From Sulfurisphaera javensis (GTDB lineage Archaea > Thermoproteota > Thermoprotei_A > Sulfolobales > Sulfolobaceae), in assembly GCF_041154675.1 (NCBI RefSeq), contig NZ_AP031322.1:1054001-1118000 (forward strand): a DNA stretch of 64,000 nt, read 5' to 3'. Under the pieces are notes generated by a model. That model did no database searches. It worked only from the letters and a program-made list of their open reading frames with translations, and was not told where the DNA came from. Shown piece by piece: positions 6,430-43,416 of the stretch (its first letter is position 1; the number at the start of each line of letters is the position of its first letter). Made by a program: the position numbers and the translations under genes.

Positions 6430-7142
6430 AATATTATAGTATGGTTGAAAAGTTATACTTAACTGATTGTTATATTAAGGAATTTAAAGCAAAAATAACC
6501 AAGATTGAAGGAAATCTCGTATTCCTTGATAAGACAGCCTTCTACCCTGGTGGCGGAGGAGTAGAAAATGATAAAGGTTTCTTATCATTTAATGGTGGAA
6601 AAGTAGAAGTTACAAACGTAAAAGAAGTTGACAACGATGTTGCTCATGAAGTCTCATCAATTCCATTCAAAGTTGGTGATGAGATTACTGGAATAATAGA
6701 TTGGGGAAGAAGATATAAAATGATGAGATTACATACAGCCTCTCACATAATAGCTTCAATAGCGTATTCTAAGTATAATGCTAAAGTAACTGGAGGAAAT
6801 ATTTCGCCAGAGTATGCCAAAGATGACTTTGACGTTGATGATAAAAACAAGCTTCTTGAGATAGTGAAAGAGGCTAACGAAATCGCTAAAAAGAGTATAC
6901 CAGTGAAAATATACTTTTTAAAAAGAGAAGAAGCATTAAAAATACCTGGAATTGTGAAGTTAGCTGAGAAGATGCCACCAAATATTGACTTATGGAGAAT
7001 TGTCGAAATAGAAGGAATTGATATCCAAGCAGATGGAGGACCACATGTCTCTAACACTTCTGAAATAGGGGAAATAGTTCCAATAAAGGTTGAAAATAGG
7101 GGAAAAGGAAAGAAGAGAATTTATTATACTGTAAAACCTTAA
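6426..7142 (+). CDS. alaX: Alanyl-tRNA editing protein AlaX
   Basis: A 238-residue stand-alone editing domain that hydrolyses mischarged Ser- or Gly-tRNA(Ala). The N-terminal part has the AlaRS-like FYPGGGG (TAFYPGGGGVENDKG) segment, and the HxxxH zinc motif appears as LHTASHIIA near residue 105. The third zinc-site region reads QADGGPHVSNTSEIG near residue 202, where the usual Cys of C-x3-H is Asp. The length and presence of the FYPGG part fit the AlaX-M class. It overlaps the small Hsp20-like gene. Confidence 0.9.
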   Translation: MKYYSMVEKLYLTDCYIKEFKAKITKIEGNLVFLDKTAFYPGGGGVENDKGFLSFNGGKVEVTNVKEVDNDVAHEVSSIPFKVGDEITGIIDWGRRYKMMRLHTASHIIASIAYSKYNAKVTGGNISPEYAKDDFDVDDKNKLLEIVKEANEIAKKSIPVKIYFLKREEALKIPGIVKLAEKMPPNIDLWRIVEIEGIDIQADGGPHVSNTSEIGEIVPIKVENRGKGKKRIYYTVKP

Positions 7143-29688: not shown

Positions 29689-29991
29689 ATGTCATCAACC
29701 ACAAGATGGATCCCAAAATGGAACATAATAAACATAGAAATTGAAGGAAAGCAAATAGAGGTTTGCTATGATGAAATCACTAAACTTTATGCTTGTCCAT
29801 ATTGTACTCCAATATGTAAAAAAGGAGGAATACCAGAACAAGGAAGTTATTTCTTTAATGTAGACGATTTGAAAGAACACATAAAAGCACACAAATTAAG
29901 TTTATGGATTAAATCAAAGAAAGTAGAGGAAGAAGAGGAAGAAGAAAAGATAAAAGTGGGAGAAGAAGAGGAAGAAGAAGGGGAAGAGTAA
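29689..29991 (+). CDS. Small zinc-finger-like protein with an acidic tail
   Basis: A 100-residue protein. A possible C2H2 zinc site is formed by ACPYCTPICKKGG and LKEHIKAHKLSLW. The C-terminus is a run of Glu broken by KIKVGE (EEEEEEEKIKVGEEEEEEGE). ATG 29689 is preferred over ATG 29671 because a TATA-like GTTTAATATTT near 29662 would place transcription start at the codon. The TAA stop overlaps the next gene's presumed ATA start. The role is unknown; possibly nucleic acid- or protein-binding. Confidence 0.65.
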   Translation: MSSTTRWIPKWNIINIEIEGKQIEVCYDEITKLYACPYCTPICKKGGIPEQGSYFFNVDDLKEHIKAHKLSLWIKSKKVEEEEEEEKIKVGEEEEEEGEE

Positions 29992-30767
29992 TAATTAAAA
30001 TACTTATCGTTGGGAACTTTACTATCGATATAATTAATGAAAAAGAACAAATAGGTGGCCCACCATTATATTCTGGATTTGCAATAAATAAACTAGGTGG
30101 CGAGGCTCACGTTTATACTATATTAGGGAAGGATTTCAATTTTGAAATCCCACATTTTCTAAAAATATATAAAATAGTAGATGATAAATATACTGTAAAA
30201 TTTAGACATATTTTCATAAATAATGAAAGAAAACTTATTCTAGAAAATAAACCTAAAAATAAAATAAAAATATTACCCTTAGACTTAAGTTATTTCTCTG
30301 GAGTAATTATTAATCCAGTATGTAATGAAATAGAAATAGAAGAGCTAAATGAGGTGCCAATTGCTCTTGATATACAAGGTTTTATAAGAAACTGTGAGGT
30401 AAATAAGGAAATTGAATACGTAAAAGCGAACCTAAGTCCTATTTCAAGTTATTTTGTATTCCATAGTAACATTGAGGAATTTGAAAAAAGCGAATTAACT
30501 ATAAATTATCTTTTAGGCCTAGGGTTTAAGGAGTTATTAATATCATATAACGAAGACGGATTTGAGTTATACACTAGAAATTATAAGGAATTTTTCAAAA
30601 CCTCAAAGATAGGTAATTATAAGACTGGGACAGGAGATACGCTGATTGCTTCTTATTTCTATTACAGACTGATTGGATATAATCCAAGAGATTCAGCACT
30701 AAAAGCAAAAGAGTTTGTAGAATGGTTCAGCAATTATGGATATCTTGAACTGTTTCACACAAAGTGA
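29991..30767 (+). CDS. PfkB-family sugar kinase, apparently starting at ATA
   Basis: The frame encodes 258 residues starting IIKILIVGNFTIDI with EQIGGPPLYSGFAINKLGG, the PfkB/ribokinase N-terminus. The C-terminal anion-hole signature is YKTGTGDTLIASYFYYRLIG near residue 215. No ATG, GTG or TTG occurs in this frame before GTG 30354, which would remove half the fold. An ATA at 29991 shares its A with the upstream TAA stop and gives MIKILIVGNF, a normal family start; ATT at 29994 is the alternative. Substrate unknown. The 3' end overlaps the convergent FAD gene by 41 bases. Confidence 0.75.
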   Translation: MIKILIVGNFTIDIINEKEQIGGPPLYSGFAINKLGGEAHVYTILGKDFNFEIPHFLKIYKIVDDKYTVKFRHIFINNERKLILENKPKNKIKILPLDLSYFSGVIINPVCNEIEIEELNEVPIALDIQGFIRNCEVNKEIEYVKANLSPISSYFVFHSNIEEFEKSELTINYLLGLGFKELLISYNEDGFELYTRNYKEFFKTSKIGNYKTGTGDTLIASYFYYRLIGYNPRDSALKAKEFVEWFSNYGYLELFHTK

Positions 30768-39758: not shown

Positions 39759-42354
<2,596 letters not shown>

Positions 42355-42358
<4 letters not shown>

Positions 42359-43416
42359 GAGTAGATCTTGCTGATCTTGTTGAAGATGTTAAAAGAGAAA
42401 TTTCAATTGCTGAACTTAAGGGAAAAAAAGTTAGTATAGATGCATATAATGCTCTTTATCAGTTTTTAGCTGCAATAAGACAGCCAGATGGAACACCATT
42501 AATGGATAGCCAAGGAAGAGTTACTAGTCATTTAAATGGTTTGTTTTATAGAACCATCAGTATTTTAGAAGAAGGTATTATACCTATTTATGTTTTTGAC
42601 GGAAAACCACCAGAGCAAAAAAGCCAAGAATTAGAACGAAGAAGAAAAATAAAAGAAGAAGCCGAGAAAAAGTTAGAACAAATAAAAACTGAGGAAGGAG
42701 TAGAAAAGAGCGAAGCAAGAAAATATGCTCAAATGAGTATAAGACTCACAAACGAAATGGCAGAAGAAAGTAAAGAGTTATTAAAAGCTATGGGAATTCC
42801 AATAGTTCAAGCGCCTTCTGAAGGAGAAGCAGAAGCTGCTTATATAAATACATTAGGTTTAAGTTGGGCAGCAGCTAGTCAGGATTATGACTCACTTCTC
42901 TTTGGAGCTAAAAGATTAGTAAGAAACCTTACACTAACTGGAAAAAGAAAACTTCCAGGGAAAGATGTGTATGTTGAAATAAAACCAGAATTAATTGAGT
43001 TAGATAATCTCTTGAAAAAGTTAGGTATTACAAGAGAACAGTTAATTGACATAGGTTTAATTATAGGAACTGATTATAACCCTGATGGAATTAAAGGATA
43101 TGGAGTAAAAACTGCATATAGAATCATAAAGAAATATGGAAGTTTAGAAAAAGCCATCGAAAAAGGAGAAATACCTAAAATTAAAGTTAATTTTAACATA
43201 GAAGAAATAAGATCGCTTTTCTTAAAGCCACAAGTGATAGAACCAAAAGAAAACTTAGAATTAAGTGATTGTGACAATAACAGAATCATAGACATTTTAG
43301 TCAAATCCCATGACTTTAATGAGGAGAGAGTTAAAAATGGAATAGAAAGATTATCTAAAGCAAAAAGAGAAGCAAAGGGTGCTTCTCGCCAGACTGGTCT
43401 TGATCAGTGGTTCTGA
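42355..43416 (+). CDS. fen: Flap endonuclease 1, apparently starting at ATA
   Basis: A 353-residue structure-specific nuclease that removes 5' flaps in replication and repair. Read from ATA 42355 the protein begins (M)GVDLADLVEDVKREISIAEL, the normal archaeal FEN-1 N-terminus with the active-site Asp in KKVSIDAYNALYQFL. APSEGEAEAAYINTLGL near 150 and SQDYDSLLFGAKRLV hold further metal ligands, with LIIGTDYNPDGIKGYGVKTA as the helix-two-turn-helix. The C-terminal SRQTGLDQWF is the PCNA-binding PIP box. ATG 42502 would delete 49 residues including an essential Asp. The ATA overlaps the upstream TAG (ATAG) and is preceded by AGGTGA. Confidence 0.9.

Follow-up and report, generated by a model that had tools for sequence, protein, structure and literature searches.

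How is translation begun in a gene whose first standard start codon lies well inside its conserved coding sequence? This question is raised by a kinase gene in the window, by which we mean the 64,000-nucleotide stretch of DNA analysed here from the thermoacidophilic archaeon Sulfurisphaera javensis. The first in-frame ATG, GTG or TTG of the kinase is the GTG at 30354, codon 122 counting from an ATA at 29991 that is proposed as the start (Table 1). A preliminary description had placed the gene's missing start in this region, and both of its coordinate claims hold: 119 aligned codons before the GTG contain no ATG, GTG or TTG, and the TAA that ends the upstream gene (29989-29991) shares one A with the ATA (29991-29993). 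A second TAA follows directly at 29992-29994, so that the junction reads GAG TAA TAA.

Table 1. Features of the kinase and FEN1 loci and of other genes without a standard start. Positions are those of the window unless a locus label precedes them.
Feature	Position	Strand	Remarks
Kinase reading frame	29913-30767	+	opens after TAA 29910-29912
PfkB/ribokinase-fold kinase, from AUA	29991..30767	+	closest solved relative: archaeal myo-inositol kinase 3w4s
AUA, proposed kinase start codon	29991..29993	+	MIKILIVGNF...
Tandem UAA UAA stop of upstream gene	29989..29994	+	TAATA junction in 4/4 congeneric genomes
Upstream gene, small protein	29689..29991	+	CxxC...HxxxH (zinc-finger-like) core, acidic tail, end GAG TAA
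Purine-rich GGGGAAGAG before junction	29980..29988	+	at best weakly Shine-Dalgarno-like
Flap endonuclease FEN1	42355..43416	+	AUA start 42355-42357; NCBIfam fen_arch: residues 1-353 on profile 1-338
Small ORF upstream of FEN1	42128..42358	+	TAG end overlaps FEN1 start as ATAG
FEN1 Shine-Dalgarno motif GGTGA	42344..42348	+	16S ends CTGGATCACCTCA
NMNAT (nicotinamide-nucleotide adenylyltransferase)	L099:18286-18801 (G000 1196286)	+	CUG start
Nucleotidyltransferase-like gene	L102:11362-12123 (G000 1250123)	-	AUA start
TiaS	L100:5727-7010 (G000 1203727)	+	AUA start in genus, ATAG/ATAA overlap
aTrm56	L101:3756-4310 (G000 1221756)	+	AUU start
PheA, prephenate dehydratase	L099:11799-12626 (G000 1190608)	-	no standard start in g1, g10

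Conservation of the kinase N-terminus

A start-less stretch of such length is not, by itself, very rare in a genome of 31% GC, and the one in the kinase gains its weight from being conserved across genomes. Over the aligned codons before the GTG, comparison of the window species with three congeners gives a dN of ~0.23 and a dS of 1.8-2.4; the resulting dN/dS of ~0.1 is much like that of the whole kinase gene. These codons evolve as coding sequence and are therefore translated.

Orthologues of the kinase were found in 30 of 31 genomes by a family search, a first contig scan with the kinase protein as query having given no match. In these 30 genomes, the gene for the acidic-tail protein lies directly upstream, overlapping or abutting the kinase. 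None of the four genomes of the genus has a standard start near the junction, which reads GAG or GGAG followed by TAATA, while nearly all of the remaining 26 orthologues have an ATG or GTG 9-30 nt before the equivalent of KILIVG, usually within the acidic tail of the upstream gene. The ATA lies a few codons downstream of the ATG of most relatives. Upstream of the junction, the three congeners offer a single standard start, a TTG in the kinase frame that falls far inside the upstream gene, 93 nt before the KILIVG codon. It is missing from the window species, where a stop at -84 shuts the frame and no start follows. The kinase is accordingly a gene in which, in several genomes, no in-frame standard start precedes conserved coding sequence, and a sequencing error near 29991 is ruled out by the occurrence of the same junction in four genomes. 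This comparison of orthologue starts, which had been put forward as a check, leaves AUA at the overlap as the simplest start, one G-to-A step from UAAUG.

The predicted protein is consistent with this position. Its assignment as PfkB is right at the level of the fold, although it falls below the Pfam cut-off: PF00294 does not match the window protein above the gathering score (E 0.32), and of 26 orthologues, two reach E <= 0.01 (best 0.0036). A profile of the kinase matches the Thermococcus kodakarensis myo-inositol kinase 3w4s with an HMM E-value of 3.5e-21, with profile position 2 falling on chain residue 3, so that the two starts agree. The AlphaFold model from the ATA (pLDDT 94.9) has its first strand at residues 3-7 and comprises a complete kinase fold, for which 3w4s is the first Foldseek match (E 1.2e-15, TM 0.75). 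With G213, G215 and D216 invariant, the modelled protein belongs to the ribokinase fold and carries a GTGD-type catalytic motif. Fold and N-terminal register are shared with 3w4s, but identity is only ~20%, and myo-inositol is not implied as the substrate of the window kinase. Since it gives a complete ribokinase fold, AUA 29991 is the best candidate start.

FEN1 as a second and stronger case

The preliminary description had counted the kinase as the second such case in the window, and the other, the flap endonuclease FEN1 at 42355, is much stronger. Of the 29 Sulfolobaceae genomes compared, which represent 10 genera, 25 have ATA, three ATC and one ATT at the position of the universal Met1 of FEN1, whereas the same column is ATG, GTG or TTG in 20 genomes outside the family. 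All 29 Sulfolobaceae genes have a motif resembling a Shine-Dalgarno (SD) sequence and an in-frame stop within 9 nt; in the window species this stop is the TGA at 42346-42348, contained within GGTGA two codons before the ATA. The fen_arch profile aligns to the protein from profile position 1. An ATAG overlap with the upstream gene occurs in most genomes, and the ATC genomes without the overlap keep the start. In the solved Sulfolobus solfataricus FEN1 (PDB 2izo chain A), the first residues are MDLVKDVKREL and the conserved (M)GVDLA start is missing, which would be expected had its start codon gone unrecognised. Initiation at AUA would give FEN1 the N-terminal peptide GVDLGEIVEDVK, with the methionine removed.

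Other genes without a standard start

Stop-to-stop frames were compared across stretches of three genomes, 400 kb each, with 464 kb of the present genome including the window. In this genome's sample, seven of 382 conserved ORFs have a conserved N-terminus but no standard start: PfkB, FEN1, NMNAT, TiaS, aTrm56, PheA and a nucleotidyltransferase-like gene. The resulting ~2% of conserved ORFs is a rough lower bound from a sample covering ~18% of the genome.

Several of these genes vary in their start column among relatives. In NMNAT, the column is CTG in 19 genomes, TTG in six and ATG in five (30 genomes), behind a conserved purine-rich SD (mostly AGGTGATGA) and usually with an in-frame stop one or two codons upstream. 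The nucleotidyltransferase-like protein, to which NCBIfam gives no match, has ATG in seven, ATA in nine, ATT in five, ATC in two and GTG in one of 29 genomes; two more have an ATA one codon off and three are ambiguous, and GGTGA or GGTGT precedes the start in many genomes. In these related genes, columns behind conserved SD motifs exchange ATG with ATA, ATT, ATC or CTG, which is the pattern expected of start codons. An exchange of ATG and ATA within the genus is also seen in an AlaX-like editing protein, which has ATG at window position 6440 (+) and ATA, with TAA one codon upstream, in congener G030 (194405, -).

Of 29 aTrm56 genes, 22 lack a standard start, and these have ATT, ATA or ATC shortly after a GGGA-type (AGGGAT-like) motif at a fairly fixed distance. 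An AUA at a TAATA was rejected for aTrm56 of the window species, as the family alignment points to an AUU 24 nt upstream, behind AAGGGAT; with AUU as its start, the gene is not counted towards a stop-overlap rule. In PheA, the N-terminal DNA GATCCAAATGGAATTTACTAT, which includes an out-of-frame ATG, is nearly invariant, as is GATCCAAATGGAATTTAC, and the start could be ATT or lie further upstream.

TiaS makes agmatidine in tRNA-Ile2 and is needed for the reading of AUA codons. Its gene has ATG in 21 genomes, while eight genes lack a standard start, having ATA, or GTA overlapping the upstream stop. The use of AUA by the TiaS gene of this genus may be a coincidence. In one genome (G021; L174, L175; C1 219852-221071), TiaS is split over two frames, by a frameshift or a sequencing error. 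The cbf5 coding sequence is also interrupted (GHGGTL / insert / DPKV; G000 1294824 (+), L104); we take the insert to be the known archaeal pre-mRNA intron at this site, and cbf5 was dropped from the list of start-codon candidates.

SD placement and tRNA reading

Of random ATA triplets in the window, only 1.2% have GGTG before them, and the duplex energies of the genes with GGTGA (FEN1, the nucleotidyltransferase and NMNAT) are within the best 0.6-2.6% of random ATA sites. These genes can be placed by their SD. In the kinase, the anti-SD duplex of -5.4 kcal/mol is reached by 12% of random ATA sites (-6.5 in congener G030), a weakness that makes restart at the overlapping stop more likely there.

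Among 46 tRNA genes detected by ARAGORN, a few of them without a resolved anticodon, three have the anticodon CAU and none has UAU, which speaks against a special tRNA for AUA. A search with a 13-nt initiator anticodon-stem pattern gave no match, perhaps owing to an intron. With no UAU tRNA seen, the CAU initiator would have to read AUA by a third-position mismatch, unless it is modified.

Where and how kinase translation starts

The interpretation first offered for the locus is supported in part. AUA as the kinase start is well backed by its occurrence in four genomes, by the fold and by precedent across the family. We consider it highly likely, on comparative sequence grounds, that the kinase is an ordinary selected gene starting at AUA 29991 by restart or nearby loading with the CAU initiator, within a wider Sulfolobaceae habit. 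Ribosomes ending the acidic-tail protein at UAA 29989-29991 would restart, or load nearby, at the AUA that overlaps this stop, and the initiator Met-tRNA, with its CAU anticodon, would read this codon with a third-base mismatch to yield MIKILIVGNF; the N-terminal peptide would then contain IKILIVGNFTIDIINEK. The site of the genus ancestor was probably UAAUG, from which one G-to-A change would have given UAAUA. For the kinase, we infer the use of AUA itself, the restart, methionine as first residue and the G-to-A history, and the gene would be one instance of a wider use of AUA, AUU, AUC and CUG starts in Sulfolobaceae, by a few per cent of conserved genes. For the conservation of TAATAA, the tandem stop would be explanation enough. 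The position of the kinase start is less certain than that of the FEN1 start, as the kinase frame stays open upstream of the ATA and two near-cognates, GUA 29988 and AUU 29994, adjoin it.

Initiation at one of these two neighbours rather than at AUA is unlikely. All four genomes have GTA at the junction, and a GTA overlaps the upstream stop in TiaS of three genomes (G019, G023, G024) that have no standard start there. A GUA start would, however, reach into the upstream GAG codon, the ATT at 29994 is not kept in congeners, and AUA has the strongest precedent in the family (FEN1, 25 of 29; nucleotidyltransferase, 9 of 29).

Decidedly improbable is a fusion of the acidic-tail protein with the kinase, joined by an RGRRRGRV linker and made by a -1 frameshift of the ribosome within the upstream gene's A/G-rich tail. 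The geometry would allow it, as upstream of the ATA the kinase frame stays open over 78 nt in the window species and ~90 nt in congeners, the upstream frame is one base off, and the tail contains the A-rich stretches GAAGAAAAGATAAAAG and GAAGAAAAAATAAAAG. Yet neither sequence has an X XXY YYZ heptamer in the right frame, and no conserved zero-frame slippery heptamer of a programmed frameshift was found in the sequences compared between the window species and its congeners. A slip on the GAAGAAG repeats, raised earlier as an alternative, fares poorly against the other genera, nearly all of which have the kinase's own ATG or GTG and most of which differ in the frame relation. The modelled kinase also folds fully without an extension. 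Finally, FEN1, NMNAT and the nucleotidyltransferase are start-less although a close in-frame stop forbids extension, and start-less genes here thus need no fusion. A frameshifted extension is formally ruled out for FEN1 but only improbable for the kinase, with its open frame upstream of the ATA.

Loss of the start, with the gene decaying or read only from the internal GTG 30354, would account for the lack of a standard start upstream but is very improbable: it is already contradicted by the purifying selection seen in the 119 codons that precede 30354, in a comparison of genomes whose synonymous sites are saturated, the frame is open in four genomes, and the GG motif and first strands of the fold would be lost. 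Least credible of all is a far-upstream start joined by pre-mRNA splicing, for although the genome sample does contain an interruption of the cbf5 type (G000 1294824), the kinase N-terminus is complete from the ATA and the region upstream codes for another conserved gene.

Coupling to an upstream stop

The preliminary description had suggested as a rule that AUA is used when coupled to an upstream stop. PfkB (TAATA), FEN1 (ATAG in most genomes) and TiaS (ATAG/ATAA) agree with it. The nucleotidyltransferase-like gene does not, its AUA standing free as GGTGA-6 nt-ATA with no upstream ORF of >60 codons ending at the start, so that not every AUA start overlaps a stop. As AUU, AUC and CUG are used too and the FEN1 genes with ATC keep their start without the overlap, stop coupling is common but not required. 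More accurately, Sulfolobaceae maintain a group of genes whose AUH or CUG starts are positioned by an SD motif or by overlap with the gene before them. Overlap may nevertheless be a route to AUA: the G of ATGA serves both the start and the upstream stop, and a change from TGA to TAA thus turns ATG into ATA. TiaS fits such a route from ATGA to ATAA.

Relation to known initiation systems

In bacteria, the classic AUU start is that of infC, the gene for IF3; we know of no IF3 in archaea. Bacterial AUU, AUA and AUC starts share with the Sulfolobaceae cases a third base other than G, long evolutionary retention and an SD motif. Unlike these bacterial starts, those described here are archaeal, occur in several unrelated genes, drift in one column among AUA, AUU, AUC and ATG, and are not known to be linked to an initiation-fidelity factor. 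Standard archaeal overlap starts with coupled translation (ATGA, TAATG) have the same gene order, overlap geometry and upstream stop, and TiaS genes with ATG in other genera have an ATGA-type overlap; the present cases differ in having another base in place of the start codon's G (TAATA, ATAG, ATAA).

For bacteria, AUU, AUC and AUA are named among the rare starts in a review (PMC4611024), whereas archaeal start codons are given as AUG, GUG and UUG (PMC7531240). The cases described here share the GGTGA motif and its spacing with this archaeal set, but their AUA, AUU, AUC and CUG codons fall outside it. Prodigal excludes ATA, ATT and CTG as starts by design (PMC2848648). Among 61,358 reconstructed ancestral AUG starts, two switches to CUG, one to AUU and none to AUA were counted, a count that rests on annotated starts (PMC5622118). 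Our literature search, which was incomplete and left subscription journals, UniProt and RefSeq notes outside, found no report of AUA/ATA start codons in Sulfolobus.

Implications

Any functional reason for keeping weak starts is speculation. The AUH and CUG starts might conceivably act as a control device of low efficiency, depending on initiation fidelity or on translation of the preceding gene and kept family-wide in FEN1 and aTrm56, TiaS included, but we regard this reading as doubtful. If the starts proposed here are true, the archaeal set of AUG, GUG and UUG falls short for an entire family of model organisms, and genes with AUA, AUU or CUG starts will be truncated or lost by Prodigal, the 2izo FEN1 being one sign of the cost. 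They would also raise the question of why AUA is kept in FEN1 in 25 of 29 genomes though ATG is one step away, and would open to direct experiment the question of how archaeal initiation tolerates codons whose third base is not G.
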